A stretch of 18,626 nt of DNA from Ruminococcus sp. (lineage in GTDB: Bacteria > Bacillota > Clostridia > Oscillospirales > Ruminococcaceae). Location of the stretch: NCBI GenBank assembly GCA_017622635.1, contig JAGAQS010000095.1, positions 1 to 18,626 on the forward strand, written 5' to 3'. Positions 2,692 to 18,626 of this stretch are shown here, piece after piece. A model generated the notes under the pieces. It was not told the DNA's origin and made no database searches. It saw only the letters and a program-made list of their open reading frames with translations. The first letter of the stretch is position 1; the number at the start of each line of letters is the position of its first letter. The translations under genes and the position numbers were made by a program.

Positions 2692-2931
2692 ATGAAAGTA
2701 ACAATATGTATCGGTTCGTCGTGCCACATAAAAGGCTCACGCAGTGTTGTTGAACAGTTGCAGGAACTGGTTGCGGAAAATAATCTCGGTGACAGGGTTG
2801 AACTTTCAGGCACATTCTGTATGGGAAAGTGTCAGCAGGGTGTATGTGTGACTGTTGATGACAGATTTTTTTCAGTATCTCCCGAAACTGTAAAACAGTT
2901 TTTTGAAACGGAGGTCATGGCAAAGTTATGA
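2692..2931 (+). CDS. [2Fe-2S] thioredoxin-like ferredoxin (NuoE/HydC-like domain)
   Basis: A 79-residue single-domain protein. Cys6-x4-Cys11 and Cys43-x3-Cys47 are the four ligands of the thioredoxin-like [2Fe-2S] ferredoxin fold found in the NuoE subunit of complex I and the small subunits of bifurcating hydrogenases; Cys52 is extra. The protein is shorter than NuoE, lacking its N-terminal helical part. It probably shuttles electrons to or from one of the two hydrogenases encoded downstream. A GAGG site that overlaps the end of the preceding gene serves its ATG. Stand-alone proteins of this kind commonly sit beside sensory [FeFe]-hydrogenases. Confidence 0.85.
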   Translation: MKVTICIGSSCHIKGSRSVVEQLQELVAENNLGDRVELSGTFCMGKCQQGVCVTVDDRFFSVSPETVKQFFETEVMAKL

Positions 2932-2964
2932 TTTGCAATTCAGCCGTGAACGGAGGTAATATAT

Positions 2965-4641
2965 ATGTCTGATTTTCTTACCCTGAAAAAATCCAACTGT
3001 AAGAACTGTTATAAATGCATACGTCACTGCCCTGTAAAATCAATACGTTTTTCGGGAAATCAGGCTCATATTATCGGGAATGACTGTATTCTGTGCGGAC
3101 AGTGTTTTGTTGTATGTCCGCAGAACGCAAAGGAAATTGCTGACGGTACGGAAAAAGTACGTGTTCTTTTGCAGAGCGGAAAACCCGTTGTTGCAAGTAT
3201 AGCACCGTCGTTTATAGCGAATTATGAGGGAACGGGAATAGAGGCTATGCGTGAGGCACTGAAAAAACTCGGCTTTTATGATGCCGAAGAAACGGCAGTC
3301 GGTGCAACCATAGTCAAGACGGAGTATGAAAGACTTGTCAACGAAGAAAAGAACGATATAATAATTACTTCATGCTGTCACTCGGTAAATCTTCTTGTAC
3401 AGAAGTATTTCCCGAATGAACTGCCGTTCCTTGCAAAAGTACTTTCACCCATGCAGGCACATTGTGCGGATATAAAGAAACGTATTCCCGAAGCAAAGAC
3501 CGTATTTATAGGACCTTGTCTTTCCAAAAAGGACGAAGCCGAAATGTACGGCGGAACGGTTGACGCAGTTCTTACTTTTGAGGAGCTGACTGTATGGTTT
3601 AAGTCGGAAAATATAACACCTGAAAAGAAAATTATCGGTAATAATGAAAGTCTTGCGAGACTTTTCCCGACAACAGGCGGTATATTAAAGACCATGACAA
3701 ATAAAAATCCCGATTATGTATATATGGCGGTTGACGGTGTAGAAAACTGTATCAACGTACTCAGGGATATTGAAAACGGAAATATACATAAATGTTTTAT
3801 AGAGATGTCGGCTTGTTCGGGAAGCTGTACGGGCGGACCTGTGATGGAAAAGTATCACCGCAGTCCTGTCAGGGATTTTATGGCGGTTTCACAGTATGCG
3901 GGAAAACAGGATTTTGATGTTGTACAGCCCGAAGTTCAGGAAATCGCAAAAAGTTTTTCATATATAGAGAGGAATACTGCTGTTCCGAGTGAGAACGAAA
4001 TAACCGAAATCATGAAACGCATGGGAAAATTCCGTCCTGAGCAGGAGCTGAACTGTGGAAGCTGTGGTTATAATACGTGCCGTGAAAAAGCGGTTGCGAT
4101 ATATCAGGGAAAGGCGGAAATTTCAATGTGTCTGCCGTTCCTGAAGGACAAGGCGGAGAGTTTTTCGGATACGATTGTTAAGAATACTCCGAACGGTCTT
4201 ATTGTCCTCAACGATATGCTTGAAGTACAGCAGATAAACAAAACCGCACTTTCTATCATGAACCTGCGTTCTGCCGGTGACATTCTCGGCGACCAGGTTA
4301 TAAGAATCCTTGACCCTTGCCCTTTCATTGAGGTACAGAGTACAGGCAGGGGCATCTATAACGAGCGTACTTATCTTGCTGAGTATCAGCGTTATGTTGA
4401 ACAGACGATAGTTCCCGACAGTGAAAGTCAGATGCTCATCTGTATTATGCGTGACGTTACCGACGAGGAAAACGAACGTGAAAAGAAAGAATCAATAAGC
4501 AGGCAGACGGTTGAAGTCGCTGACAGGGTTGTTGACAAACAGATGAGGATTGTTCAGGAAATAGCCTCACTTCTCGGTGAAACTGCTGCCGAAACTAAAA
4601 TTGCACTGTCAAAATTAAAGGAGTCAATTACGAATGAATGA
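2965..4641 (+). CDS. hydS: HydS-type sensory [FeFe]-hydrogenase with PAS domain
   Basis: A 558-residue cytoplasmic protein. In order: two [4Fe-4S] ferredoxin clusters (Cys12/15/18/22 and 41/44/47/51); an H-cluster domain (about 70-330) with ligands in TSCCHS (Cys138), GPCLSKK (Cys185) and ACSGSC (Cys284, Cys288), plus the proton-relay Cys137; a further Fe-S motif (Cys364/367/372/389); a PAS domain (about 400-500); and a charged helical tail. The H-cluster loops differ from catalytic enzymes: TSCC is followed by HS rather than P, and GPC replaces MPC. This is the layout of group C hydrogenases, thought to sense hydrogen rather than turn it over. It has no kinase domain of its own. GGAGGT sits seven bases before the ATG. 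Its stop overlaps the phosphatase start, making a sensor-effector pair likely. Confidence 0.9.
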   Translation: MSDFLTLKKSNCKNCYKCIRHCPVKSIRFSGNQAHIIGNDCILCGQCFVVCPQNAKEIADGTEKVRVLLQSGKPVVASIAPSFIANYEGTGIEAMREALKKLGFYDAEETAVGATIVKTEYERLVNEEKNDIIITSCCHSVNLLVQKYFPNELPFLAKVLSPMQAHCADIKKRIPEAKTVFIGPCLSKKDEAEMYGGTVDAVLTFEELTVWFKSENITPEKKIIGNNESLARLFPTTGGILKTMTNKNPDYVYMAVDGVENCINVLRDIENGNIHKCFIEMSACSGSCTGGPVMEKYHRSPVRDFMAVSQYAGKQDFDVVQPEVQEIAKSFSYIERNTAVPSENEITEIMKRMGKFRPEQELNCGSCGYNTCREKAVAIYQGKAEISMCLPFLKDKAESFSDTIVKNTPNGLIVLNDMLEVQQINKTALSIMNLRSAGDILGDQVIRILDPCPFIEVQSTGRGIYNERTYLAEYQRYVEQTIVPDSESQMLICIMRDVTDEENEREKKESISRQTVEVADRVVDKQMRIVQEIASLLGETAAETKIALSKLKESITNE

Positions 4642-5806
4642 TTTGTGTGCGGATATTGGTTATAAAAGTATCAATCATTACGGTGAACAACTCTGCGGTG
4701 ACCACGTTGACATAGTTGAACAGGGTGAAAATTCAACCGTAATAGTTCTTGCGGACGGTCTCGGAAGCGGAGTAAAGGCGAGTATACTTTCGACCCTTAC
4801 TTCAAAAATCATTTCTACCATGATATCGGCAGGACTTCCCATTGAAGAATGTGTTGCGACAATTGCAGAAACACTGCCTGTATGTTCCGTGCGTGGCGTT
4901 GCCTATTCGACTTTTACAATAATACGTCTCATGAACAACGAAACCGCTGAAATTATACAATATGACAATCCGCAGGTCATTTTTATACGTGATGCCGAAA
5001 GCACTGACTACACGAAAAACGAAATGAACATAGACGGAAAGAAAATTTATCGTTCCGTAATAAAACTGCGTGAGAATGACTTATTTATTGCAATGAGTGA
5101 CGGCTGTCCCCATGCAGGTATCGGAAATTCATATAATTTCGGCTGGAAAACGGAAGATATAGCTTCATTTGTAGAAAGTCTCGTCCCCGTCGGTTTTACG
5201 GCGAAAACACTTTCAACAATGATTGTTGACGAATGTGAAAAACTTTACGGGTACAAGGCAGGCGACGACGCAACGGCTTGTGTTGTTAGAATCCGTAAGA
5301 GAGAACCCATGAATATTCTTTTCGGTCCGCCCTCAAACCGTGACGACTGTGGCAGAATGATGAGTCTGTTTTTTTCAAAGGCAGGAAAACACATTATATG
5401 CGGAGGTACTACCGCTACTATTGCAGGGCAGTGGCTCGGAAAACCCGTCAGGGCAAGCCTTAAATTTGAACGGAGTGACATACCCCCGACTGCTGAAATA
5501 GAGGGCGTTGACCTTGTGACAGAGGGCGTTATTACGGTAAGTAAAGTTCTTGAATATGCGGTTGACTATGTGAACGAAAACAAACTTTATGAGGAGTGGA
5601 ATTTTCAGGAAAACGGTGCTGCAAAGATAAGCCGTATGTTGTTTGAGGAAGCGACGGATATAAACTTTTATGTCGGAAAGGCTGTCAATCCTGCACACCA
5701 GAATCCGAATCTGCCCATAAATTTCAGTATAAAAATGAATCTTGTTCAGGAACTTTCGGAGTGTCTGAAAAAAATGGGCAAAAGAATAAAGGTTATTTAT
5801 TTTTGA
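4634..5806 (+). CDS. SpoIIE/PP2C-family protein phosphatase with unrecognised C-terminal domain
   Basis: A 390-residue protein. Residues 1-220 are a PP2C-like phosphatase domain with metal-binding acidic residues in GDH (Asp23), LADGLGSG (Asp41), SDG (Asp156) and GDDATA (Asp211/Asp212). Such enzymes dephosphorylate Ser/Thr, often on anti-sigma-factor antagonists. Residues about 225-390 form a second domain that I do not recognise (ILFGPPSNRDD, HIICGGTTA). The ATG lies inside the last codons of hydS (ATGAATGA, 8-base overlap), so translation is coupled and the amounts are probably matched. The likely job is to turn the redox or hydrogen state of the HydS H-cluster and PAS domain into dephosphorylation of an unknown partner. 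That role is inferred from order and overlap only. Confidence 0.87.
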   Translation: MNDLCADIGYKSINHYGEQLCGDHVDIVEQGENSTVIVLADGLGSGVKASILSTLTSKIISTMISAGLPIEECVATIAETLPVCSVRGVAYSTFTIIRLMNNETAEIIQYDNPQVIFIRDAESTDYTKNEMNIDGKKIYRSVIKLRENDLFIAMSDGCPHAGIGNSYNFGWKTEDIASFVESLVPVGFTAKTLSTMIVDECEKLYGYKAGDDATACVVRIRKREPMNILFGPPSNRDDCGRMMSLFFSKAGKHIICGGTTATIAGQWLGKPVRASLKFERSDIPPTAEIEGVDLVTEGVITVSKVLEYAVDYVNENKLYEEWNFQENGAAKISRMLFEEATDINFYVGKAVNPAHQNPNLPINFSIKMNLVQELSECLKKMGKRIKVIYF

Positions 5807-5814
5807 GGTGAAAT

Positions 5815-7239
5815 ATGAGAAAGTTTGATACAAAAGTACAATATCTTAAATATAAAGTACTGAGAGAGGTTGCAAGGCAGGCGTGGAATGACACACTTCT
5901 TGAAAACCTTATAAGTATTCCTGAAATTATTGTCCCCGGAAAAACACCGACAATGCGTTGTTGTGTTTATAAGGAGAGGGCTATTTTAGGGGAAATGGTT
6001 AAGCTTGCAATAGGCGGTGACAAGGAAAACCCGAATGTGATTGAAGTGATTGATATTGCCTGTGACGAATGCCCCGCAGCAGGATATGAAATAACAGATT
6101 CATGCAGGGGCTGTCTTGCACACCGCTGTGAAGAAGTATGTCCGAGGGGTGCTATTACATATGACCACAATCACACGGGACATATTGACAAGGAAAAGTG
6201 TATCGAGTGCGGAAAATGTGCGTCTGTCTGTCCGTATTCGGCGATTGTGAACAGAAAGCGTCCGTGTCAGAATGCGTGCAAGATAAAAGCCATATATATT
6301 AATGATGAGAATGCGGCTTCAATTGATAATGACAAGTGTATAGAATGTGGGGCGTGTGTATATCAGTGTCCTTTCGGTGCAATTATGGACAAATCGTATA
6401 TTCTTGACGTAATTGATATGCTGAAAAAGAGTGAAAACGGAAAGAATTTCAAGGTATATGCAGTTGTTGCACCGTCGATTTCAAGTCAGTTTTCATATGC
6501 TAAACTCGGTCAGGTTGTCAGCGGACTTAAAAAAATCGGTTTTCACACCGTAGTTGAGGCGGCACTCGGTGCTGATATGGTGGCGGACGCTGAATCACGT
6601 GAACTTGCTGAAAAAGGTTTCCTTACAAGTTCATGCTGTCCTGCTTTTGTGAAGTACATAAAATCCGCTTTTCCCGAAATGGCAGAACATATTTCACACA
6701 ACCTTTCGCCTATGGCTTCAATCTCAAAGTATATAAAGGAAAGACACGAAAATGCAAAAGTTGTGTTTATAGGACCGTGTACCGCCAAAAAGTCGGAAGT
6801 CAAACTTGAGACGGTAAAGCCTTATGTTGATTCGGCAATGACTTTTGAAGAACTTCAGGCTTTGTTTGACAGTAAAGATATTGATATAACTGCACTCGAA
6901 GAAGATGTTTTGAACAATGCCTCATATTATGGCAGAATCTTTGCAAGGAGCGGTGGACTTTCCGAAGCCGTTGAGCAGGGTCTCAGGGAAAACGGTATTG
7001 ATGATTTCACACTTGAGGCTTGTGTATGTGACGGAATAGAAGAATGCCGTTCGGCTCTCATGAAAGCAAAGCGTAATGTACTGAAAGCCAATTTTATTGA
7101 GGGAATGGCGTGCAACGGTGGCTGTATCGGCGGTGCAGGCTGTCTCACTCACGGAGAAAAAAACAAGACTCAGGTTGACAAGTACGGCAGGGAAGCAATG
7201 GAAAAAAATATATCCGATGCCATATCAGTTCTGAAATAA
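5815..7239 (+). CDS. hydA2: Monomeric [FeFe]-hydrogenase, group-B-like (HydA2-type)
   Basis: A 474-residue cytoplasmic enzyme expected to reduce protons with electrons from ferredoxin, or the reverse. The N-terminal part (about 95-190) is cysteine-rich with three ferredoxin-like stretches (Cys97/100/105/109, Cys129/132/135/139, Cys175/178/181/185) plus Cys151 and Cys155. The H-cluster domain has SSCCPAF (Cys274/Cys275), GPCTAKK (Cys322) and GMACNGGC (Cys433/Cys437), covering the four ligands of the [4Fe-4S] subcluster and the proton-relay cysteine. GPC and CPAF favour the group B (M3) enzymes over clostridial HydA1. GAGGTG overlaps the upstream stop, and the ATG is 8 bases past it. Last gene of the operon, followed by a perfect terminator. 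Maturation proteins HydE, HydF and HydG are not in this window. Confidence 0.9.
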   Translation: MRKFDTKVQYLKYKVLREVARQAWNDTLLENLISIPEIIVPGKTPTMRCCVYKERAILGEMVKLAIGGDKENPNVIEVIDIACDECPAAGYEITDSCRGCLAHRCEEVCPRGAITYDHNHTGHIDKEKCIECGKCASVCPYSAIVNRKRPCQNACKIKAIYINDENAASIDNDKCIECGACVYQCPFGAIMDKSYILDVIDMLKKSENGKNFKVYAVVAPSISSQFSYAKLGQVVSGLKKIGFHTVVEAALGADMVADAESRELAEKGFLTSSCCPAFVKYIKSAFPEMAEHISHNLSPMASISKYIKERHENAKVVFIGPCTAKKSEVKLETVKPYVDSAMTFEELQALFDSKDIDITALEEDVLNNASYYGRIFARSGGLSEAVEQGLRENGIDDFTLEACVCDGIEECRSALMKAKRNVLKANFIEGMACNGGCIGGAGCLTHGEKNKTQVDKYGREAMEKNISDAISVLK

Positions 7240-7270
7240 CTGTGTTTTTTGTTAAATATATATGTTATTG

Positions 7271-7303
7271 AAGCGTATTACAATAATACGCTTTGATTTT
7301 TTC
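7271..7303 (+). terminator. Rho-independent terminator of the hydrogenase operon
   Basis: AAGCGTATTA (7271-7280) pairs perfectly with TAATACGCTT (7284-7293) across a 3-base loop, followed by TGATTTTTT, 31 bases after the hydA2 stop. Confidence 0.92.
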
Positions 7304-7546
7304 TGATTTTTTTGTTGATTATGCTACTCTTTTTGCTGACTGTTTTTTGTGAAAATGCACAAATTATACAATTCGTAATAGTATGTTACGCCGAAATTAT
7401 ACTTTTTAGTCAAAAAAATATTGACATTTTTAAAATGTGGTGCTATAATTATGACACTGCAAACGATTCATTAATGCATTTTTACTACAAATAAATATAC
7501 TTGCCATGATTTGCAAAAGTTTAAGGAAAGGCAGGCTGATAATTTT
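7304..7546 (+). other. Intergenic region and leader before the surface-protein operon
   Basis: Between hydA2 and the next gene (307 bases in total) I see the terminator above, a promoter (7421-7449) and a leader of about 90 bases. Apart from these I see no convincing gene, riboswitch or repeat. The leader ends in a purine-rich AAGGAAAGGCAGG stretch (7523-7535). Confidence 0.6.
7421..7449 (+). promoter_or_regulatory. Consensus promoter of the surface-protein operon
   Basis: TTGACA (7421-7426), a 17-base spacer and TATAAT (7444-7449). It is an exact match to the primary sigma-factor consensus and likely drives the pilin-like gene, the coiled-coil gene, the signal peptidase and the giant surface protein. 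Confidence 0.9.
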
Positions 7547-8821
7547 ATGCTTTTGAAAAAAATAAGATTATTGAATATCGTTATATGTATAATTACTGTT
7601 CTGTCGCTTCTTTCACTGATGATTCCGTCACAGAAAATTCATGCGGAGGATGGAAATAAATCTCTTACACTGGTATGCGTAAATGATGATGTTGTTCTTC
7701 CGGGTATGCAGTGGAAACTTTACAAGGTCGGCAAACGACGCAATACAGCACAGAATTTTGTGCAGACGGGCGATTTTTCGGCATTTCAGGTTAATCTGCG
7801 TAATCTCACCGTGGAAAGAGTAACAGAAGCCGCACAGTCTTTTCAGGCTTATGCGATTGCAAACAAAATCAAGCCGTTGAGAGAGGGTACAACAGACAAA
7901 AACGGAGAAGTTACTTTTACAGGTCTTGACGCAGGTCTTTATCTTCTGTCAGGAAAACTTCTTAAAATCGACAGTCATTATTATGTACCGGGTGTATCTC
8001 TTGTTGAAATAAAAGAAGATGATGATAATTTAAGATATAATGCATATCCTAAGTTCTCATATCAGGTAATGAATGCAACACCGAAAAATTATACTGTAAG
8101 GAAAGTCTGGTCAAATGATGAGGACAGAATAGACGAACGTCCGAAATCAGTTACCGTTAATATTTACAGGGACGATGAATTTTATGATTCCGCTGTCCTT
8201 GATGAATCAAATGACTGGAAATACAGGTGGGTTGATGATAAGGGCGTTTCTTCATGGATTGTAATGGAAGATGAAATCCCTTCCGATTATGAAATGAAAG
8301 TTACTTATGATGAATCACATTATCTTATTGAAAACGCCTACTTTGAAGATGCAGGAACATTTACTGTTACAACTACAGTCACTACTGCATCAACTACCAC
8401 TTTGGTATCCAACAATACAGTGACAACAACGGCAACAGGCTCAGGTTCGATTGGTGACGGTTCTGACACAAGAACAAATACAACAACTGTTACTACAGTT
8501 TCAGGACCTATTGGCGACGGTTCTGCAACAAGAACAAATACGGCGACTACAGTTTCAGGTCCTATCGGTGACGGTTCTGCAACAAATACAACAACGTCAG
8601 GTACGGGCGATAACAATTCGTCAACAAAAACAGGAACGTCGTCCGGTTCAGGTGGAGGAAATAGCGGAGGTTCTGGCGGTGGAAACAGCGGAAGCTCCGG
8701 CAACGGAAAACTTCCGCAGACAGGTCAGTTATGGTGGCCCGTTGTACCGCTTTCAATCGGCGGTGTGATTCTTATTGCGGCAGGTCTGACAATAAGGGCA
8801 AGAAAAAAATCAGATGAATGA
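7547..8821 (+). CDS. LPXTG-anchored pilin-like surface protein (SpaA/Cna-B type)
   Basis: A 424-residue exported protein. A signal peptide (1-33, cut after IHA) leads into an N-terminal pilin domain (about 37-165), then the pilin-motif-like sequence YNAYPK (Lys169), where sortase C would join subunits. A Cna-B domain follows (about 180-268: VRKVWSNDEDR, RPKSVTVNIYRD, and WIVMEDEIPSDY resembling an E box). After it come a Thr/Ser/Gly-rich stalk (270-387) and a sorting signal: LPQTG (389-393), a hydrophobic helix and RARKKSDE. The architecture suits a backbone or basal pilin. I chose the ATG at 7547 because the in-frame TTG at 7511 has no ribosome site, whereas AAGGAAAGGCAGG precedes 7547, though spaced rather far (about 11 bases). 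No sortase is in the window. Confidence 0.85.
   Translation: MLLKKIRLLNIVICIITVLSLLSLMIPSQKIHAEDGNKSLTLVCVNDDVVLPGMQWKLYKVGKRRNTAQNFVQTGDFSAFQVNLRNLTVERVTEAAQSFQAYAIANKIKPLREGTTDKNGEVTFTGLDAGLYLLSGKLLKIDSHYYVPGVSLVEIKEDDDNLRYNAYPKFSYQVMNATPKNYTVRKVWSNDEDRIDERPKSVTVNIYRDDEFYDSAVLDESNDWKYRWVDDKGVSSWIVMEDEIPSDYEMKVTYDESHYLIENAYFEDAGTFTVTTTVTTASTTTLVSNNTVTTTATGSGSIGDGSDTRTNTTTVTTVSGPIGDGSATRTNTATTVSGPIGDGSATNTTTSGTGDNNSSTKTGTSSGSGGGNSGGSGGGNSGSSGNGKLPQTGQLWWPVVPLSIGGVILIAAGLTIRARKKSDE
8444..8599 (+). repeat. In-frame stalk repeat, 18-20 residues per unit
   Basis: Three consecutive units within the stalk of the LPXTG protein: a 20-residue unit starting GSIGDGSDTRT, an 18-residue unit starting GPIGDGSATRT, and a truncated unit starting GPIGDGSATNT. 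DNA identity between units 2 and 3 is high (GG[AT]CCTAT then GACGGTTCTGCAACAA), so copy number may vary between strains. Confidence 0.85.
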
Positions 8822-8848: not shown

Positions 8849-9052
8849 ATGACTGATAAGGAACTGCGTAAGCTGAAACGTTCTGAACTGCTTGATTTGC
8901 TGTTATATATGCGTAAAGAACTTGACGAACTTCAGGAGGAAAACGAAAACCTCAGAAAACAACTGAAAGATTCGGCGGAAAACCGTGAAATGCTTGAAAA
9001 AATTTTTAAAGCCGTATGTACGGAAGAACAGAAAAAGGAGTCTGACGTATGA
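8849..9052 (+). CDS. Small coiled-coil protein of unknown function
   Basis: A 67-residue, highly charged protein without signal peptide or membrane segment. Residues 5-57 read as one long helix with heptad-like leucines (LLDLLLY, LDELQEE, NENLRKQL) and should form a coiled coil. AAAGGAA lies eight bases before the ATG. The gene begins 27 bases after the LPXTG gene, and its stop overlaps the signal peptidase start as ATGA, so the two are translationally coupled. I do not recognise the family. The position suggests a cytoplasmic accessory or scaffold for export or assembly of the surface proteins, but nothing in the sequence proves it. Confidence 0.75.
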   Translation: MTDKELRKLKRSELLDLLLYMRKELDELQEENENLRKQLKDSAENREMLEKIFKAVCTEEQKKESDV

Positions 9053-9642
9053 GCAGAAAACGGCTGAATGTTTCAATGGAAAATCTTCCGACTGCCGAAC
9101 AGTTTGAATCGGAACTGAAACGTATAAGATACCGCAAGGATTTTTCAAGAATATTGAAAAGCACGATTTCGTCACTTCTTGTGGTTGCGGCAATTGCAGT
9201 GCTTATCTCAATGCTTCTGCTTCCTATTCTCAGGGTTACGGGTTCAAGTATGACTCCTACAATGCAGAATGATGAACTTGTTGTTTGTTCAAAGAGAAGC
9301 AACTTCAAGGCAGGAGATATTGTGGCATTCTACTACAATAACAAAATTCTCCTTAAAAGAGTTATAGGAACGGCAGGCGACGTTATAGACATCAAAGAGG
9401 ACGGCACTGTTTTTCTGAACGGTGAGGAACTCGATGAACCTTATGTCAATGAAAAATCTTTGGGAACGTGTGATATTGAATTGCCTTATCAGGTCCCCGA
9501 CAACAGAATATTTGTAATGGGTGACCACCGTTCAGTTTCTGTTGACAGCCGTTCAACTACTGTGGGTTGTATCGCTGATGAATATGTTATCGGAAAAGTT
9601 ATTTTCAGACTATGGCCCTGGAAATCAATTGGTACAGTATGA
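9049..9642 (+). CDS. lepB: Signal peptidase I (S26 family)
   Basis: A 197-residue membrane protease that removes signal peptides from exported proteins. A cytoplasmic N-terminal stretch is followed by one membrane segment (about 38-62), then the catalytic domain outside. Catalytic Ser67 is in GSSMTPT, general-base Lys103 in LLKRVIG, and the conserved GDHRSVSVDSR (158-168) is box E, with His in place of the more usual Asn. The Ser/Lys dyad marks it as the bacterial P type rather than the Ser/His SipW type. It overlaps the coiled-coil gene by ATGA and sits between two genes whose products have signal peptides, so it may be dedicated to these surface proteins. No terminator precedes the giant gene 51 bases downstream. 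Confidence 0.93.
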   Translation: MSRKRLNVSMENLPTAEQFESELKRIRYRKDFSRILKSTISSLLVVAAIAVLISMLLLPILRVTGSSMTPTMQNDELVVCSKRSNFKAGDIVAFYYNNKILLKRVIGTAGDVIDIKEDGTVFLNGEELDEPYVNEKSLGTCDIELPYQVPDNRIFVMGDHRSVSVDSRSTTVGCIADEYVIGKVIFRLWPWKSIGTV

Positions 9643-9680: not shown

Positions 9681-9696
9681 GGAGGGAGCTTCATTG
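9681..9696 (+). promoter_or_regulatory. Ribosome binding site and TTG start of the giant surface gene
   Basis: GGAGG (9681-9685, inside a longer GAGGAGGGAG) lies eight bases before TTG (9694-9696). No ATG follows until the end of the signal peptide (9817), and an in-frame TAA is at 9667. The TTG is therefore the only start that gives an intact signal peptide. Confidence 0.87.
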
Positions 9697-12600
9697 AAGA
9701 GATTTCAATCTATTATTCAGAAATATATTACAAATCATCAGAAACATAAAAAATATCTTGCGGCAGTGTTAGCTCTGTCCATTCTTGTGTCATTCGCTGT
9801 TCCTGTCAGCCTTATTATGCCCGCTGTCAGCATGACAAATGGTGAATCTCCGCAGGCTGACTATGATAATAATATTGTGGCTTTGGCTAATGATACACCA
9901 CCTGCATTTGATTTAAGTCAGTATCCTGATTGTTTGGATATGATGAGTGCTAATAGTTGGAGTATGTATGTTAGTAATTATGGGGAAGAGGGTAGCTTAT
10001 TTAATAAAAATAATAATAGCACTGGCAATGGTATAGATACTGATTATGGTGATTACCAAGGAAAAGAGTTAGAGTTCTATTTTGATTATACATTCAATAA
10101 TAAATTAGATTATTTCGATTATGGTTTAAATAAAAAATATATGTACATAAATTTTAAATTAAGTACTGGTCTTACTCTTAGTTCAAATACGAAAACTGGA
10201 AATGTCATGGATACTGAATATAATTCTGAATTGCAAGCCGGAACTTATGAGATTAAAGATGATGGATATATTTTAGTAACACTTACAGAAAATTATATTA
10301 ATTATATTAACAAGGGTAGTGGTAAAATTACTGGTACGCTTAAATTTTATGGTACATTATCAATTGACAATGATGCAGATGGCAATCAAAATTTTTGGTT
10401 TGGTAATTATAATATTCCCGTTACATTTCAGGAGAAAAATCCTACAATAACTAAGAATGGCAATGTAAATAGTTCAAATGGTTGTATAGAATGGACTGTT
10501 ACAATAAACAATCAAAATAAAAATGATTTAAATAAATATGAATTGTATGATGACATGCTGAAAAAAGCAAGCGAAGTAACATTTAATCCTAAAGATACAG
10601 GTACTTGTGATAAAACGAATGGTAAAATTACTTTTGCGAATGGCTTAGAAAATCAGCAGCAGATTACAATTACATATAAAACTCCCATAGATGCATATAA
10701 TACAAATATTAAAAATAATGCATCATTAAAGAAAAATGGTGTTGAAAAAAGTCCAGGTTCAAAAGAAGTATGGATTGGTCAACCTGTAAATGTTACTAAG
10801 ACAGGTACAGCTGACTATAGTACAGGTAACAAGACATATAACAATGAGGTTATCTGGACAATTGAAATAAACAGTTGTTATGGACAGTCACTGGACGGTT
10901 ATATAATTGATGATGCTAATTTCCCGAGCAACGTTTCAGATATAACAGTTTCACCCAATGCTTCTTTGAAAAATAATGACGGCAAATACATTCTCAGTAC
11001 AAATGAAAAGAGTGTAACTCTTACTTATAAGCAGAAAGTAAACAATATTGGTAATGTATATAATATAGTAACCGTTAAAACTCCGGACGGAAACAATTCT
11101 GTAACGGGAGATAATACAGTTACATATCAATCAAAGTCAAATTTGTATAATTTAACTAAAGAGGGTTCTTATGACAAAGACACACATTTAATTAAATGGA
11201 CTGTCAAAGTTTCTTCTACAAACGGTTCTTCTTTAAACGGATATAAGTTATTTGATGAGGGCTTTAAAAATGCGGTTGATAGTAAGTTCTATGTAAATTA
11301 TACCAATAATGAATTTAATGATTATAATTTGAGTGAATCAACTATGACATTGAACAGTAACAGCAGTAACATTGAGTTCTATTACTATACTAAAGCAACT
11401 GCCAGTGATTCAGGAAAAGACGTTACAAACAGCGTTGAACTTAAAAATCCTGATGATACTTCTTTTAAAGACCCTACTTCAAAAACGGTGAAAGTTGATG
11501 AGTTTAGAAACGAACTTTCTAAACAGGTAGTAAGTTATGAAAGTAATTCTGTTGCAAGCAAAGGTGAAATCAAACAGGTTATTGGTTGGAAAGCAAGTAT
11601 TACATATGATAATAACCTTGCAAATAAGACATATACAGATACACTTTCAGTTAATGGCGAAAGTAATGCAACACATACTATTACGCAGAAACAGCTGGAC
11701 GCTATTGAAGTATATGCAAAAGTAAAAAATAGTGATGGTCGTACAAAATTAGTTAAAGGTAATGACTATACAATTGATCCAACTGATAATGGCTTTACAG
11801 TTAAATTTAATGCTACACTTGATGAAAAAGGTTATAATTATGTTGATATTGAATACAATACAACTGCAACAATACCCGCAAGTGAAAGTTATGATACTAT
11901 TACTGAATTTAAAAACAGCGGTAGTGGTTTTGGCGATGGTGCAAGTGTTAGTCATTCAATTACCAGAGGAAATCCGAATGTAGATAACAAGTTAAATCTT
12001 ATAGTTAACAAAACATGGGACGGCAATGATGATGAAAGTAAAAGACCTGATGTCTATATAAAAGTAATGTATCAGACAAAGGTTGGAAATGCATCAGCCA
12101 GTGAATGGAAACCCCTTAAAAAGGATTCGAGCGGAAATCCTTCTGTTGAAGAAACTCTTAATGACAATTATATTGTTGAATTAAAGAAAGATGGTACATG
12201 GTCAACAGTGTTAAATGGTCTTCCTATGGAAAAATCTTATGCACTTGACGACGGTACAAAGAGTGAAGTTACTTATTATTATTATAAGCTGGTTGAAGTT
12301 GATAAAGACGGTACCGAAATCAAGCATATTCCGACAGAAAACGGCTTATATAGAGTAAGCAACAGTGATAATACAAATACCGATTCTGCTTCACAGTCAT
12401 TGACCGTTACTAATACCTATTATGGTAATATTAACATAACAGGTATTAAGAACTGGAGTAATGATAGCGATTATACAGGTGACAGAAAAGGAGTTACTGT
12501 TGAACTGCGTCGTTCAACTGACCAGTATAACTGGAGCAGTTATACAGTTGTTGAAACTAAGACTTTAGACAGCAGTAATAATTGGTCTTATACATGGAAC

Positions 12601-15600
12601 AATCTTCCGTCAAGAGGTTTTGAACACGGAGATGTTGTAACTTACTACTATAAGTTGGTTGAAACCAAATGCGGTGATACAACTATTGATGATAATAACA
12701 AAATTATTTTTACTGATAATGGTTATTATGAATCAAGTGTTTCAAGTAATGTTACGAATAGTTCAAACCAGACTCTTAGTGTTACAAATACGTTCCATAA
12801 AAATATTGATATTTCAGGTCAGAAAATTTGGCGTGGTGACAATATTGAGAACAAACCGGCAATTACTCTCCAGTTGATGCGTAGTGAAAAGGATAAGAAT
12901 GACTGGAAAGAATATCGCAATTTAACATTAAATTCGGATAGTAACTGGGAATATTCTTTCAATAATCTTCCGACCAAAGCGATGGACAATAATCAGATTA
13001 AGGACTATGAGTACAAGGTTGTGGAAACAAAAATCGGAAATTATAATGTTTCTTCAAACAAGGCTATAGTAAACAATGGCTATTATATAGTTAGTTATAG
13101 TGATAATAATGCTATAAGTAATAATAAGAGTGATTTGAATATTACAAACACTTTCCACAAAACTAAAAATCTGACAATCACAGCTAATAAGGTGTGGGAC
13201 GATGAAGGTTATGTAGAAAAACGTCCTGATTCGATTATACTTCAGTTACAGAAAAAAGCAAACAATGGCAACTGGGAAAATTTCGGTGATGAAAAGACAA
13301 TAATTTCAAATGGTGATAATCAGTCTTGTTCATGGAATAATCTTGTTTCACAGAATATTGATGACCACGGAAATGTAACAGAGTATGCGTACAAAGTTGT
13401 AGAAGTCGGATATGTTGTCAATGGTAAAACGTACAGAATCCCTGATAACGAGACACTTGCAATAGACACAAGCGGCTTTTACGAAATAAAGTATGATAAT
13501 AAGGAATTAAAAGATTCAGGTACAGTAACAGTCACTAATGAATTTACTCCAAACGGTACAATAAGCATTACACCGAAAAAAGTCTGGGCAAAGGATACCG
13601 ATACAGCAAGATATGATAATGTTACATTGCGTGTGCAGGTAAAGAACGGCAATGAATGGGTAGACTACAGAGGCTCTGACGGAAATTTATTTGAAGTTAC
13701 GTTTGGACCGTCAGAAAATGACCCTACAGAGACTGAATTTAAAGACGGTCAGAATGTTGTTGTAAAGGTTACTTGGACAGGTGACGTTATATCAAATCTG
13801 CCGAAACAGAAAATCACAATTACTGAAGAAAATGTTGACGGTAAGACTGTAAGAAAGATTGATACAGAATATTATACTTACAGACTCGTTGAAGTATTTA
13901 ACGGAGAAGTTCTTGAGGCTAATGATAAAATCAGTGTTAAGAACGGAAATGACAAGTACGAAGTAACTTATTCCAGTGAGATAACCATGAATAACGGAGA
14001 ATTTACAGTTACAAATACATTTGTCAAGAACATAGGTGTTGATAAGTATGCAGTAGATGTAGTTGTCAATAACGGAAATGTTATTGTCAAAAATAAGGGT
14101 AAGGAAATTTCTATTGATAAAGATATTTTAACAGATGAAAATTCTCCTTATAAGAAAACCATTGACGGTAAACAATACTATGTATTCAACTGGGTTCTTG
14201 ATTTTGATACTCCCGGTATGAGTAGTTCTACATTTGACCAGCTTCCTAAAGGTTTTACTCTTGTGGATAAAGAAATTTACAAAGAAATGCCTTGGGGGCC
14301 TAGTGTACAAATAGTAGATTTTAAAACGCCATTTAATAGCACAGTAAAGAATTATTGTTCTGATGGTTATTATTGGAGACCATATTTTGTTTATTCAAAT
14401 ATGAATGGTGCTAGTAGCACTGGTATAACTAATCCAACAAAGCAATCAATGTTGTCACAGGTTGTTGGTAGTAAAACTGATGGATATTTTTATGATACAG
14501 TAAGTAACAAAGTTTATTTTTCTAAACCAAAAGTTAATGAAGGAGTTGTTTTTGAAATTTGCTATTCCACTAAAGTTGAGTGTGCAACACTGGACGCTAT
14601 GATTCAGAAAAAAAGCTATCCTGTTACTAACCATGTTATAAAGCTGGAGGATAATGGTAAGGAAACTAAGGAAGACTCAGAGGCAACTGTATTGATTAAA
14701 AATCAGGCTCCTTCCGACCTTATCAGCAAAGAATATGTAGCAAATGCAAATCAGGGTTGGATAGGCTTCTCACTGGATATCAACCCCGACGGAAAAAACC
14801 TTTCCAACGGCGATACCATTGACATTGAAGATATTTTCAAAACTGAAAGCTACATTGACAAAGACAAAGACAATCAGTTTACACCAGGTTCAAATCTCGT
14901 TGACGTTCTTATGAAGAGCATTTCAATTTACAGTGTTGATGCGAACGGAAATGAAACAAAACTTGACAGAAATAATTATATACTGAATTTTGAGAGTAAC
15001 GAAAAAGGTGTGACAAACCGTGACAATGAAACAGGCGAGGCGTTAATAAAACTTACCGTCCCCGATGAAACGCATATCAGGGTCAAATATCTGTATAAGA
15101 TGATTGCAAACAATAACACGCCTTCTGTACGCAACGGGTGCAAGAGTTCTGAAAGAGATAAGGTTACGGGTAAATTCCCGATAATGGCTCCCGGTATGGT
15201 GCCACCGGTAGGGGATACAATTACATTCAGCAATACCGCAAAACTCTATTCTGACGGTGTTTCTGCTGAAGATTCAGTAAATTCACAGGAATATGTTGTT
15301 TCAAGGTCAGGTGCTACGATTTCTACAAATGCACTTCCTAAAATCAAGAAAGTCAATGTCGGAAATTATAATATTAATAATCTGTCATCAAAATTCCTGC
15401 TTGCACGTTATGACGATTCAAAGAAACAGTGGCTTTATGCTACTGAGATTAATGAGCAAAATGCAATAACAAAATGGAGTGACGGCTTTACAGGTTTGAC
15501 CGTATGTAAAAACGCAGAACCAATTAACGTAGGTGAATCTTATTATCAGATTTCACTTGATAAAAATTCACTTTATAAGTTGGTGGAAGTAAGAGTTCCT

Positions 15601-18600
15601 ACAGGATACGAGGGCTCAAACCTTAACTTGAGTGATGCTGAGTTTGAACAACTGATAAGACAGTATCTGAATGACAAAACTAAGACTAAATTGAATGGAA
15701 AAGATTATTCTGTATTCCTTGAAAAATATGTTCCTGTATATTACTTTGTGTATAACAGTATAATTACTTCTTATCCTGACGGTATTAATTCAAGTGATGT
15801 AATTCAGGTTAAATCAGGTGAAGACGTTGAAATTCCAAACAGCGAGTTGATTGACATCGGTGTAGATAAACAGTGGGTTGACGGAGAAAAGGCGGATTCA
15901 ACAATTGATGTGGAATTATATTGGTCTTACAATAAATCCACTTCAAAAATGCCGTCTGACGCACAGCTTGCAACTGCTGAAGAACTTGGAATTATGTATG
16001 GTGGATTTTCAGCTAACAAAACCGTAAATTCGGGTAAAAATCAAAAAGTATGGGAAGATTTACCGAATGGTAAAGACAGCAAACCTATTTATTATTACAT
16101 CAAAGAAACGGCTTATACAATCGATAACATGAAGTACACGCTTGTTACAGATAAAGAAAAGGAAAATTATGGAAAATATGTTACAGAAAATGGTTATGTT
16201 GGTGAATATTTTCCGACTTATGTCGGAAATGCCACAAATTCCGATTCTGTAATTACAGTTAATAATTCTCAGAAACTGATTCTTAAAAAAGTATGGAAAA
16301 ATGCTTCTAATATGCCGTTAAGTGCAGGCAAAATTCCGGCAGATGAAATTCTTGTAACAATTTATGGTACAGATAAATCAGATGCTGAAGTAGAACTTTT
16401 CAAAGATGTTAGAGTAACAAAAGACGACAACTGGGAACGTGACATAACTGAGTTGCTTAAAACAAATGAAATCAACCTTGAAGATTACAAGAGTTTCAGG
16501 GCTGAGGAATCGGGATTCGATACAAAAGATTATGTAGTCAGCTGTGTATTCAATCTTAACGCAGATACAGGTGAAATTACGGTAACAAATAAGTGCGTCA
16601 ATGCTACAGATGCGTCTGTAACCGTAAATAAATCGTGGAGCGACGGAAACGATACACACGAAAAGGATTCAATTAAAGTTTCGCTTTATCAGTCAACATC
16701 ACCAATTTCAGATATTACAAATCTTACATCTGACGATTTATCAGGTGCAAAGCTTTATGAAAATGTTGAGTTGAATGTGAAGAATGATTGGTCATATACA
16801 TGGACCGGTCTGCCGTTGGATAACAGTACTGATGAAACAAACGCAACTGAAAGTTATTACTATTATGTATTGGAAACTGATGTCATAATTGATGGCGACG
16901 ATGAAAATAAAACTAATGCAAAGAAGTATGAAACAACATATTCTTACGATAAACCAAACAATAGTAAAACCACATATACAATAAATAATACACGTAATTC
17001 TATCAAGGTTCAGAAAGAATGGTATGATGTAAATAATGAACTTATTCCGAATGAATTTATTGATGAAGCAGACGGCAGTGTAACTCCAAACGAAGCATTA
17101 AACGGATTGGAAATTAAGCTGAGCCTATATGAAAAGGCAGAAAATCCGTTGATTCGTGACGGTTGTCACCCAAGTGAAGAGGGATATGAGGCAATTGCAA
17201 ATGAATATTTAAATGCAATTCAAAGTATTTATGCTACTCCTCCGGAAAAGGAACTGGAAATTATAGCTTTGGGTGATTCTATTACAGATGGATATCAGAC
17301 CTTTTCTAAAGGTGAAAAATGTTATCCCAGTAAATTAACTTCATTCTTAACTAATAAAAGTTATAAGCTTAAAGGTAATTCAGTTGTAAATAGGGGTGAA
17401 AGTGGTCAAAGACTGGGTAATAGTGCTGATGATGGTGATACTATTAGAAACAGAGTAAAGAGTCAGATTACAGATACTGCAGATATTGTTCTTTTGCTTG
17501 GTGGTACTAATGATATACATCAAGATAGGTATAATAATAATGCATGGTCTAATCCTACAGAATGTATGAGGAGATTAGAGGCTTGTATTGGAGAAATACA
17601 AGCAAAAGCTGAAAATGCTATAATCATTGTAGGAAGCATTCCTCATTTTGATTATGTTGGTGCTGACGGTAATGCAACAACGGCTTCTACTTGGTGGGGG
17701 GTAAATGAGGAAGATGCTAATAAATATATCGACCAGTATAATGCATTAATAAACGCTTATACAGAATCTAATGATAGTGATAATGTTTACTATGTAGATA
17801 CTTGCACAGCTGTTGATGGAATTTCTCCTGCAAAGGATGAAAATGGTAATCCTCTTTCTGAGATTACTCTCAACAGTGGTAATAACTGGACAGCAATAGT
17901 TGACGTTACAGGTAATGACAAGTATTATTTTGAAGAAACACAAGTCATACTGAGTGACGAAGATGTTACTGACGATTGGAAAGTAAGTTATAAAGATAAC
18001 GGACAGACAGCAGGAGGTCAGACACCTATTATCGTAAAGAATAAAAAAGCACCTGTTCCGACAACATCAGTTTTCATTGAAAAGACATGGGTAGGTGATA
18101 ATGCAGATACTGATGCTTCGGAGAGAGCAAAAATCAAGCTTGAACTCTGGAGAACTGCAACGCCGGATGTTGAAGATAGCTGGGAATGGTACGCAGATGT
18201 TGATTCACAGCATACCGGTACAGGCAATGTATGGACATATACCTGTGATAATCTTCCGGCTAAGGATAATTTCGGTAATGCGTATAGTTACAAAGTTGTT
18301 GAATTGGATATGGACGGCTATACTGTTTCGTACGATAATCCTGATAGCGTAATAGCTTTGGAAAACGGTAACGCAGGTACTCTTAAACTCACTAATACAA
18401 GAACAGTTTCACTGAAATTCAAGAAAATATGGTCTGACGGTGATACTAATGAACATCTTAATGATAAAGTTGAGGTGAAAGTTTACCGCTCTACCAATCC
18501 CGATGACGCAAAAAAATATATTATTGATGACAAAAATCTTATACTGCATATTTCTTCGGAGAATGTTTCAGTCGGAGTTAATTCAAGTACATCTGTAACT

Positions 18601-18626
18601 GCTAACAAGAGTGGCATTACTGCAAC
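9694..18626 (+). CDS. Giant multi-domain Cna-B surface protein with inserted SGNH hydrolase (3' end beyond window)
   Basis: An open frame of 2,977 codons with no stop, cut by the window edge. A long signal peptide (1 to about 45: basic NHQKHKKY, then a hydrophobic run ending PAVSMT) leads to a head of unknown fold (about 50-249). Four Ig-like/DUF11-like repeats follow (about 250-765, each opening with a Thr/Ser-Lys pair and containing W-[TK]-[VIA]), then five Cna-B domains (766-1447). A second module (1450-2050) contains similar Ig-like domains and a SpaA/prealbumin-like domain (LYKLVEVRVPTGY). At least six more Cna-B domains (2053 onward) follow, the ninth overall carrying an SGNH esterase. 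Cna-B domains usually hold Lys-Asn isopeptide bonds that stiffen stalks. The protein is probably an adhesin or pilus-tip component. A C-terminal LPXTG signal is expected but not seen. Confidence 0.92.
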   Translation, partial: MKRFQSIIQKYITNHQKHKKYLAAVLALSILVSFAVPVSLIMPAVSMTNGESPQADYDNNIVALANDTPPAFDLSQYPDCLDMMSANSWSMYVSNYGEEGSLFNKNNNSTGNGIDTDYGDYQGKELEFYFDYTFNNKLDYFDYGLNKKYMYINFKLSTGLTLSSNTKTGNVMDTEYNSELQAGTYEIKDDGYILVTLTENYINYINKGSGKITGTLKFYGTLSIDNDADGNQNFWFGNYNIPVTFQEKNPTITKNGNVNSSNGCIEWTVTINNQNKNDLNKYELYDDMLKKASEVTFNPKDTGTCDKTNGKITFANGLENQQQITITYKTPIDAYNTNIKNNASLKKNGVEKSPGSKEVWIGQPVNVTKTGTADYSTGNKTYNNEVIWTIEINSCYGQSLDGYIIDDANFPSNVSDITVSPNASLKNNDGKYILSTNEKSVTLTYKQKVNNIGNVYNIVTVKTPDGNNSVTGDNTVTYQSKSNLYNLTKEGSYDKDTHLIKWTVKVSSTNGSSLNGYKLFDEGFKNAVDSKFYVNYTNNEFNDYNLSESTMTLNSNSSNIEFYYYTKATASDSGKDVTNSVELKNPDDTSFKDPTSKTVKVDEFRNELSKQVVSYESNSVASKGEIKQVIGWKASITYDNNLANKTYTDTLSVNGESNATHTITQKQLDAIEVYAKVKNSDGRTKLVKGNDYTIDPTDNGFTVKFNATLDEKGYNYVDIEYNTTATIPASESYDTITEFKNSGSGFGDGASVSHSITRGNPNVDNKLNLIVNKTWDGNDDESKRPDVYIKVMYQTKVGNASASEWKPLKKDSSGNPSVEETLNDNYIVELKKDGTWSTVLNGLPMEKSYALDDGTKSEVTYYYYKLVEVDKDGTEIKHIPTENGLYRVSNSDNTNTDSASQSLTVTNTYYGNINITGIKNWSNDSDYTGDRKGVTVELRRSTDQYNWSSYTVVETKTLDSSNNWSYTWNNLPSRGFEHGDVVTYYYKLVETKCGDTTIDDNNKIIFTDNGYYESSVSSNVTNSSNQTLSVTNTFHKNIDISGQKIWRGDNIENKPAITLQLMRSEKDKNDWKEYRNLTLNSDSNWEYSFNNLPTKAMDNNQIKDYEYKVVETKIGNYNVSSNKAIVNNGYYIVSYSDNNAISNNKSDLNITNTFHKTKNLTITANKVWDDEGYVEKRPDSIILQLQKKANNGNWENFGDEKTIISNGDNQSCSWNNLVSQNIDDHGNVTEYAYKVVEVGYVVNGKTYRIPDNETLAIDTSGFYEIKYDNKELKDSGTVTVTNEFTPNGTISITPKKVWAKDTDTARYDNVTLRVQVKNGNEWVDYRGSDGNLFEVTFGPSENDPTETEFKDGQNVVVKVTWTGDVISNLPKQKITITEENVDGKTVRKIDTEYYTYRLVEVFNGEVLEANDKISVKNGNDKYEVTYSSEITMNNGEFTVTNTFVKNIGVDKYAVDVVVNNGNVIVKNKGKEISIDKDILTDENSPYKKTIDGKQYYVFNWVLDFDTPGMSSSTFDQLPKGFTLVDKEIYKEMPWGPSVQIVDFKTPFNSTVKNYCSDGYYWRPYFVYSNMNGASSTGITNPTKQSMLSQVVGSKTDGYFYDTVSNKVYFSKPKVNEGVVFEICYSTKVECATLDAMIQKKSYPVTNHVIKLEDNGKETKEDSEATVLIKNQAPSDLISKEYVANANQGWIGFSLDINPDGKNLSNGDTIDIEDIFKTESYIDKDKDNQFTPGSNLVDVLMKSISIYSVDANGNETKLDRNNYILNFESNEKGVTNRDNETGEALIKLTVPDETHIRVKYLYKMIANNNTPSVRNGCKSSERDKVTGKFPIMAPGMVPPVGDTITFSNTAKLYSDGVSAEDSVNSQEYVVSRSGATISTNALPKIKKVNVGNYNINNLSSKFLLARYDDSKKQWLYATEINEQNAITKWSDGFTGLTVCKNAEPINVGESYYQISLDKNSLYKLVEVRVPTGYEGSNLNLSDAEFEQLIRQYLNDKTKTKLNGKDYSVFLEKYVPVYYFVYNSIITSYPDGINSSDVIQVKSGEDVEIPNSELIDIGVDKQWVDGEKADSTIDVELYWSYNKSTSKMPSDAQLATAEELGIMYGGFSANKTVNSGKNQKVWEDLPNGKDSKPIYYYIKETAYTIDNMKYTLVTDKEKENYGKYVTENGYVGEYFPTYVGNATNSDSVITVNNSQKLILKKVWKNASNMPLSAGKIPADEILVTIYGTDKSDAEVELFKDVRVTKDDNWERDITELLKTNEINLEDYKSFRAEESGFDTKDYVVSCVFNLNADTGEITVTNKCVNATDASVTVNKSWSDGNDTHEKDSIKVSLYQSTSPISDITNLTSDDLSGAKLYENVELNVKNDWSYTWTGLPLDNSTDETNATESYYYYVLETDVIIDGDDENKTNAKKYETTYSYDKPNNSKTTYTINNTRNSIKVQKEWYDVNNELIPNEFIDEADGSVTPNEALNGLEIKLSLYEKAENPLIRDGCHPSEEGYEAIANEYLNAIQSIYATPPEKELEIIALGDSITDGYQTFSKGEKCYPSKLTSFLTNKSYKLKGNSVVNRGESGQRLGNSADDGDTIRNRVKSQITDTADIVLLLGGTNDIHQDRYNNNAWSNPTECMRRLEACIGEIQAKAENAIIIVGSIPHFDYVGADGNATTASTWWGVNEEDANKYIDQYNALINAYTESNDSDNVYYVDTCTAVDGISPAKDENGNPLSEITLNSGNNWTAIVDVTGNDKYYFEETQVILSDEDVTDDWKVSYKDNGQTAGGQTPIIVKNKKAPVPTTSVFIEKTWVGDNADTDASERAKIKLELWRTATPDVEDSWEWYADVDSQHTGTGNVWTYTCDNLPAKDNFGNAYSYKVVELDMDGYTVSYDNPDSVIALENGNAGTLKLTNTRTVSLKFKKIWSDGDTNEHLNDKVEVKVYRSTNPDDAKKYIIDDKNLILHISSENVSVGVNSSTSVTANKSGITA
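10441..11988 (+). repeat. Four tandem Ig-like/DUF11-like domains in the giant protein
   Basis: Units start near 10441 (TITKNG...CIEWTVTIN), 10786 (NVTKTG...VIWTIEIN), 11137 (NLTKEG...LIKWTVKVS) and 11506 (ELSKQV...VIGWKASIT). Each is 115-160 residues, has a Lys in the first strand, a Trp strand 13-25 residues later and, in the first three, a Y-x-[IL]-x-D element after it. The pattern resembles isopeptide-forming adhesin domains. The family name is tentative because divergence is high. Confidence 0.6.
11989..14031 (+). repeat. First Cna-B array (five domains)
   Basis: Domains start near 11989, 12421, 12796, 13156 and 13558. Each opens with a strand of the type [IV]-x-[KG]-x-x-W-x-x-[DN] (VNKTWDGND, GIKNWSND, GQKIWRGD, ANKVWDDE, PKKVWAKD), has a central W-[ST/E]-x-x-x-[FWL]-N-x-L strand and Y-x-[LV]-[VY]-E, and closes with [VI]-T-N-[TE]-[YF]. 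The first-strand Lys, middle Glu and closing Asn are the usual isopeptide triad. Confidence 0.88.
14032..15849 (+). other. Second head module with SpaA/prealbumin-like domain
   Basis: This stretch of about 600 residues separates the two Cna-B arrays. It contains a divergent domain with two close aromatic clusters (14161-14580), an Ig-like domain (about 14710-15270, opening SKEYVANANQGW and closing TFSNTAKL), and a SpaA-like domain (15343-15630, opening IKKVN with FLLARYD and closing LYKLVEVRVPTGYEG). A helical/Tyr-rich segment (YVPVYYFVYNS) precedes Cna-B 6. Boundaries are approximate. The 14161-14580 part has no family I recognise. Confidence 0.6.
15850..18626 (+). repeat. Second Cna-B array (at least six domains, one interrupted)
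   Basis: Domains start near 15850 (VDKQWVDG), 16266 (LKKVWKNA), 16610 (VNKSWSDGND), 16990 (VQKEWYDV), 18064 (IEKTWVGDN) and 18412 (FKKIWSDGD). The last is cut by the window end. All but one are about 115-140 residues. The fourth is about 355 residues because it holds the SGNH insert. Closing strands vary (VNNS, VTNK, INNT, VKNK, LTNT). Confidence 0.87.
17146..17850 (+). other. Circularly permuted SGNH/GDSL hydrolase domain inserted in Cna-B 9
   Basis: The segment reads, in order: DGCHPSEEGYEAIANEYLNAI (the Asp-His block that normally ends an SGNH enzyme; Asp2489, His2492), a linker (about QSIYATPPEKELE), EIIALGDSIT (block I, Ser2529), VVNRGESGQ (block II, Gly2571), LLLGGTND (block III, Asn2606), helices (IDQYNALINAY) and NVYYVDTCTAVDG, the strand that normally precedes the Asp-His block. 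All four SGNH signature residues and the catalytic Asp are present, and the core is about 210 residues, a full domain. Natural C and N termini are joined, and the new termini lie in the loop before DxxH. The motifs most resemble acetyl-esterase families such as CE3, so deacetylation of a glycan is a reasonable but unproven role. Confidence 0.85.

Follow-up and report, generated by a model that had tools for sequence, protein, structure and literature searches.

A circularly permuted SGNH hydrolase domain in a Cna-B loop of a giant Ruminococcus surface protein

The stretch of DNA analyzed here (the window) is a whole contig of 18,626 nucleotides, JAGAQS010000095.1 (G000:C25 in our numbering), from the Ruminococcus sp. 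assembly GCA_017622635.1. Its last feature is an open reading frame (ORF) whose product, judging from the sequence, is a giant surface protein of the sortase-anchored type, with Cna-B matches and a single Lipase_GDSL_2 match in Pfam. One of its Cna-B domains carries in a loop an SGNH unit (approximately residues 2485 to 2709 of the ORF) in which the motif blocks come in the order H-S-G-N and not in the canonical order S-G-N-H. Support for a circular permutation within one Cna-B loop comes from profile coverage, from relatives that have the natural order at the same site, from the grouping of the permuted domains in a single clade, and from a confident structural model. We consider it very probable that the insert is one complete, circularly permuted SGNH domain, real, present in a single copy, and arisen in place. 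Permuted SGNH order as such is known; what is notable here is that both orders coexist in orthologues at one site.

All four SGNH blocks (GDSIT, NRGESG, GGTND, and DGCHP) were found in the window, in one frame and with no stop, with DGCHPS at residues 2489 to 2494, GDSITDG at 2527, and GGTND at 2603. The Asp/His block lies 38 residues ahead of the Ser block, and the Gly and Asn blocks come afterwards; translation thus gave the same order and coordinates as the initial annotation of this DNA, which had placed a DxxHP block before the GDS nucleophile. By motif, we assigned the catalytic set to Asp2489 (codon at 17158-17160), His2492 (17167-17169), Ser2529 (17278-17280), Gly2571 (17404-17406), and Asn2606 (17509-17511).

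On the native sequence, the Pfam model PF13472 (Lipase_GDSL_2) gave an E value of 9.7e-21 and 75.5 bits (cutoff, 32.9) over positions 1 to 153 of 178, with its end uncovered, and an annotation based on this profile alone would label such a permuted domain as truncated. An in-house hidden Markov model (HMM) of 224 positions, built from seven natural-order relatives, matched the native order in two pieces, model positions 196 to 223 on residues 3 to 29 of the piece searched (28.5 bits) and positions 3 to 191 on residues 37 to 223 (220.1 bits). The model was covered once, with its tail upstream of the nucleophile, its body downstream, and no overlap. When the insert was re-ordered to the natural arrangement, a comparison that the initial annotation had proposed, a single match over positions 3 to 223 scored higher than the native order (260.0 versus 246.4 bits), while the core alone reached 221.2 bits and the shuffled tails (n = 50) at most 231.2. 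Re-ordering also extended the Pfam match from positions 1 to 149 of 178 (73.3 bits) to 1 to 178 of 178 (79.6 bits), and the in-house HMM gave the same pattern in the other four permuted proteins described below.

These tests bear on the possibility, already raised in the initial annotation as one that would speak against a permutation, that two SGNH inserts recombined and that DGCHP is the leftover of a degenerate copy in a broken enzyme. No degenerate second copy was seen, and the single coverage of the profile argues against one. The sequence DGISP after the last strand is slightly like a decayed H block; its score was reached by 27 to 59 of 1000 shuffles in three of the permuted proteins and by 396 and 658 of 1000 in the other two, which makes it a weak candidate for a relic. 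In addition, the motif set is complete in all five permuted proteins, at identities down to ca. 50%, and between the cores of the window and of a second locus (L003) third codon positions are the least alike (identity of 0.60, versus 0.72 and 0.75 at first and second positions, 181 codons), as under protein constraint. Taken with the profile coverage, this makes recombined copies very unlikely. A foreign base composition of the insert was considered and dropped, since its G+C content is 34.7% versus 33.6% in the preceding part of the gene (standard deviation of 2.6 for windows of that length). The value is 40.5% for the H block by itself (111 bases) and 38.4% for the part of the gene beyond the insert; we draw no inference from these two figures.

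To find homologues, residues 2432 to 2790 were used in a protein search (120 of 1583 matches listed), as was P0007, one of the permuted relatives (120 of 1597 listed). Among the 202 distinct proteins listed, 197 had the order S-N-H and five the order H-S-N, a count that is weighted to close relatives and is not a family rate. The five are the window's own protein (P0003), P0004 (85% identity), P0005 (82%), and P0006 and P0007 (50% each), so that the search for same-order homologues suggested at the outset gave four, among the matches listed, besides the window's own. Insertion of enzymes in stalk domains as permuted units had been called rare in the initial annotation; among the listed relatives an SGNH unit is the common state of this Cna-B loop, and it is the permuted order that is exceptional (5 of 202). 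When the window was aligned with 29 of these relatives (30 rows), natural-order and permuted inserts fell in one and the same loop. In block II, Thr replaces the usual Gly (NQGQSTQQIG) in 132 of the 202 listed proteins, all of natural order, and SG is kept in all five permuted ones.

A scan of genome contigs, from which 80 of 134 relatives were kept and nine of these were read (L003 to L007, L026, L054, L070, and L073), extended this picture to gene loci. Natural order was found at ten of the loci read (L004, L005, L006, L007, L086, L089, L093, L094, L113, and L114; the H block of L094 was placed by profile match, and L084, L085, and L087 duplicate L006, L005, and L007, respectively). Permuted order was found at two, the window and L003, a metagenome-assembled genome of Ruminococcus from roe-deer colon whose protein carries the permuted stretch of P0006. 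L113 belongs to a genome outside the window's family, and its insert was judged by eye to sit in the same loop. Matches were obtained in 9 of 125 genomes of the genus (at 1e-8), in 2 of 297 at the family level (the window and G135, of natural order), and in 1 of 394 at the order level (at 1e-10), which is the window itself; of the 42 viral contig stretches that fit a pattern, none encodes a relative. A profile of the junction (A4, at 0.001) gave some match in 44 of 125 genomes of the genus and in 8 of 391 of the class, in nearly all cases to one half, and a strong match spanning both halves only in the window (E value of 3e-38). Weak spanning matches in G300, G346, and G381 were rejected, as by eye these are GDSL proteins of the usual natural-order kind that end in a dockerin-like part. 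A protein search with the junction only retrieved three permuted proteins among just 8 candidates, and for that reason missed P0006 and P0007.

The recurrence of the permuted order also bears on the quality of the assembly. The genome is fragmented (382 contigs with a total of 1.68 Mb, 69% complete), and P0008-like and P0005-like stretches form a mosaic in the protein, so a chimeric contig that mimics a permutation has to be considered. Given that P0004 to P0007 have the same order on other contigs, two of them at ca. 50% identity and with the junctions at equivalent places, we give such an artifact hardly any weight.

Both ends of the domain had been placed in a single Cna-B loop by the initial annotation, and the borders agree with a related protein in genome G389 (L090), in which the corresponding domain has no insert. 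In alignment A1, Lys2441 (codon at 17014-17016), Glu2748 (17935-17937), and Asn2783 (18040-18042) are invariant in all five permuted proteins and form the candidate isopeptide set of the host domain, a role that we presume by analogy to other Cna-B repeats. The pattern VxKxW around the host lysine is present in 201 of 203 rows; P0006 and P0007 keep the Lys, with Ala at the first place. The profile evidence on the Cna-B nature of the host is equivocal: the insert-free L090 domain aligns with PF05738 (Cna_B) over positions 2 to 86 of 87, but at 16.6 bits, below the cutoff of 22.3, and the halves of the window's host domain taken alone give no match to the Pfam Cna_B model.

We then asked where the permutation falls in the history of the insert, using a tree of the contiguous core only (209 domains thinned to 31 rows at 90% identity, with the five permuted rows all kept). 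The permuted rows lie on one side of a branch (100/99), among natural-order rows and next to P0033, also of natural order (92/94); the outermost rows of the midpoint-rooted tree, L007 and L093, are likewise of natural order. Since the permuted rows are one clade among natural-order cores, a single permutation in place would be the simplest reading of these sequences. In the ancestor of this small clade, the segment with the Asp/His block and the last helix would have moved ahead of the Ser strand. A linker of nine residues would have come to connect the old termini, with the new ones right after the last core strand and right before the catalytic Asp. By eye, the new linker, NAIQSIYATPPEKELEII, resembles the natural C-terminal (...NAIQSYYT) and N-terminal (...TVPTDSIGIVAF) linkers fused together, which suits a tandem duplication with loss of opposite ends. 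As the most likely route, we propose that the insert was first duplicated in tandem and that copy 1 then lost its front and copy 2 its back.

Several observations weigh against this history or parts of it. The midpoint root of the tree was chosen for drawing, and the branch to P0033 carries no star; nor does P0033 stand out by raw core identity (52% to the window, with 54% for the best row). None of the 202 proteins listed has two SGNH copies, which leaves the duplication route without an intermediate, and the exit linker is a weak candidate for the decayed H block of a second copy. Finally, rank correlations between H block and core ancestry over 22 natural-order rows were significant in none of the five permuted proteins; the H block is too short to show an ancestry shared with the core.

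The comparison of whole proteins suggested that the insert has a history of exchange as well. Over residues 1 to 2400, the identity between the window protein and P0008, the insert of which has natural order, is at least 90% in 20 of 24 hundred-residue blocks and nowhere below 75%. It amounts to 96% at residues 2426 to 2450, 52% at 2451 to 2475, and 28 to 64% across 2476 to 2725 (the SGNH unit); beyond the unit it is 72 to 80% at 2726 to 2800, 30 to 48% at 2801 to 2900, and 80 to 100% at 2901 to 2975. With P0005 the picture is reversed, with 60 to 92% over 2426 to 2900 (at least 76% in 15 of 19 blocks) and 21 to 62% per hundred residues upstream. P0005 in turn is 81 to 94% identical to L007 over its residues 1901 to 2400 and 79 to 85% over 2701 to 3000 (mostly 31 to 83% before 1901), while their SGNH units, that of L007 being of natural order, share 14 to 41% in 25-residue blocks over 2451 to 2675. 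Because the window protein resembles P0008 on both sides of an insert that in P0008 has the natural order, the SGNH segment seems to be exchanged between alleles, with recombination in the Cna-B sequence on either side, and the loop looks like a swap site for enzyme cassettes, natural or permuted. Against this, the contig of the window could be chimeric between strains at its borders, and P0008 was compared as a protein only; a chimeric assembly could mimic exchange in the window, but would leave the permuted order of the other four proteins unexplained. At L007 (positions 7001-8092), Cna-B flanks like those of the window clade enclose a very divergent natural-order SGNH unit (LGTNN, DGCHL), a further type of cassette for this loop. 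As a rule, natural circular permutations are inferred from comparisons of remote homologues. Here, the old and new states of a natural protein rearrangement are both visible at one site, and the proteins of the window and P0008 are well matched for studying how permutations arise, whether activity is kept, and what a tether at the active-site side does.

The AlphaFold2 model of the window domain is confident (predicted local distance difference test score of 88.6), with structural matches (VIA) to SGNH esterases over approximately model residues 89 to 279. In the SGNH fold, the C-terminal ends of the parallel strands bear the catalytic residues and the last helix returns to the opposite pole, so that natural-order inserts would be tethered opposite the active site. 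The permuted insert would instead be tethered after the last strand and through a stretch of seven residues that leads from the host strand to the catalytic Asp, that is, at the active-site pole. From what is known of the fold, it is likely that the permutation flipped the orientation in this way, and the enzyme would then be upside down with respect to the stalk, its pocket adjoining the Cna-B surface.

As for function, we predict from the sequence, with somewhat less assurance, that the domain is active as an esterase, putatively of the O-acetyl (carbohydrate) kind and with plant or cell-surface glycans in the vicinity of the stalk as substrates. The presence of a GH8-dockerin gene ca. 8 kb upstream makes acetylated plant polysaccharide a first guess at the substrate. 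The domain might alternatively be folded and permuted and yet serve as a binding module or an acyltransferase, as could be expected of an adhesin-like surface protein (P0007 has a weak collagen-binding match, below the cutoff) and from the permuted SGNH proteins described in PMC9487903, which are acetyltransferases. We regard this as unlikely, although not negligibly so, given the full set of Ser, Gly, Asn, Asp, and His and the esterase-like structural matches. A broader and rather doubtful idea is that the loop serves a pilus-linked protein as a socket for exchangeable enzymes. Permuted and natural cassettes would be traded between strains by recombination in the adjoining stalk sequence, and the permutation would act as an orientation switch that turns the active site to face the stalk and not away from it.

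Among known systems, the order H-S-G-N is shared with the SGNH-like acetyltransferases AlgX and AlgJ (AlgX family) and PatB1 (DHHW family), which have a permuted fold according to PMC9487903 and PMC4148444. As described there, AlgX and AlgJ carry a Tyr in place of the Asn of block III and a DxH motif, and PatB1 has KDS and DHHW, in contrast to GDS, Asn2606, and DxxH in the window; moreover, the permuted order is presented as family-wide, whereas the window group has both orders among orthologues. These proteins raise the possibility that a separately permuted SGNH domain of another family, AlgX- or DHHW-like, replaced a natural-order insert in a loop that, as L007 illustrates, can hold inserts of very different sequence. 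Such a replacement is highly improbable, since the permuted core falls among natural-order cores of the same loop (in a tree without AlgX or DHHW rows) and carries the canonical motifs, Asn and DxxH, rather than Tyr and DxH, and since neither Pfam profile matched the window protein at E values up to 1. AlgX, AlgJ, and PatB1 were not among the best 50 structural matches listed, which does not exclude likeness.

The closest counterparts of the permuted insert are the natural-order Ruminococcus inserts (P0008, P0033, P0110, and L004 to L006), which have the same kind of protein, loop, SGNH subfamily, and motifs but the order S-G-N-H and attachment through the old N and C termini. Esterases of the Lipase_GDSL_2 or CE3 type (e.g., Clostridium thermocellum CE3, 2vpt) have natural order and were solved as a separate domain, outside Cna-B. 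A precedent for a permuted inserted domain is RNA polymerase, in which inserted domains are permuted relative to stand-alone homologues (PMC13114784), although the domains are others and the available text does not mention both orders in orthologues. Our literature search found no paper joining SGNH or GDSL with Cna-B, including in Ruminococcus, and in the accessible text of PMC9487903, which treats AlgX, AlgJ, and PatB1, "Cna" occurs 0 times and Cna-B insertion goes unmentioned. PMC12667903 and PMC3779223 proved to have no bearing on the question. The remark in the initial annotation that it knew of no described permuted SGNH within Cna-B agrees with this result for the combination, and needs qualifying as to the permuted order, which is known from these three proteins. 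The sequences also show SGNH enzymes housed within stalk domains of surface proteins in Ruminococcus, and on such a location, too, the search found no paper.

The features of the window that bear on the insert and its gene are collected in Table 1.

Table 1. Coordinates of the permuted insert, its host domain, and associated genes in the window
Feature	Position	Strand	Basis
Cna-B protein, candidate minor pilin	7511..8821	+	Pfam Cna_B; shared pilus locus inferred
Signal peptidase S26 between both Cna-B genes	9049..9642	+	Pfam PF10502
Giant Cna-B-containing surface protein	9694..18624	+	2977 aa to contig end, 3' open
Host Cna-B, N-terminal half, NTRNSIKVQKEWYD...KLSLYEKAENP	16987..17148	+	Alignment A1; model strands 5-13, 41-50
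Relocated block V and last helix, LIRDGCHPSEEGYEAIANEYLNAIQSIY	17149..17232	+	HMM positions 196-223; model helix 64-82
Nine-residue linker, old C terminus to old N terminus of SGNH domain	17233..17259	+	Between model helix 64-82 and strand 92-96
SGNH core, usual internal order, last strand VYYVDT	17260..17817	+	Pfam Lipase_GDSL_2; structural matches
Exit linker DGISPAKDENGNPLS returning to host domain	17818..17862	+	Alignment with natural-order relatives
Host Cna-B, C-terminal half	17863..18057	+	Invariant columns of A1

The full-length permuted relatives end in LPXTG-like sequences (MPSTGG in P0004 and P0005, LPMTGG in P0007). Signal peptidases of the S26 kind accompany Gram-positive pilus loci, and at L005 genes for a pilin backbone, a sortase, and a minor pilin with Cna-B (10079-14228) lie directly after the natural-order giant gene. 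By analogy, a pilus link of the giant protein in the window is plausible; L006 speaks against it, as the giant gene there is followed by a GH5 cellulase on the opposite strand, an unassigned ORF, and a HAD hydrolase. Another contig of the window's genome (G000:C26, L119) encodes a sortase and an LPSTGG-anchored protein at 3926-6000.

Elsewhere in the window, positions 405-1811 encode the GH8 glycoside hydrolase, which carries a type I dockerin and is an enzyme of the cellulosome type. Three genes at 2965-7239, for an iron hydrogenase with a weak PAS match, a SpoIIE-type phosphatase, and a second iron hydrogenase, resemble a hydrogen-sensing cluster. Tandem repeats with units of 54 and 24 bases are located at 8450-8692, within the gene of the candidate minor pilin.
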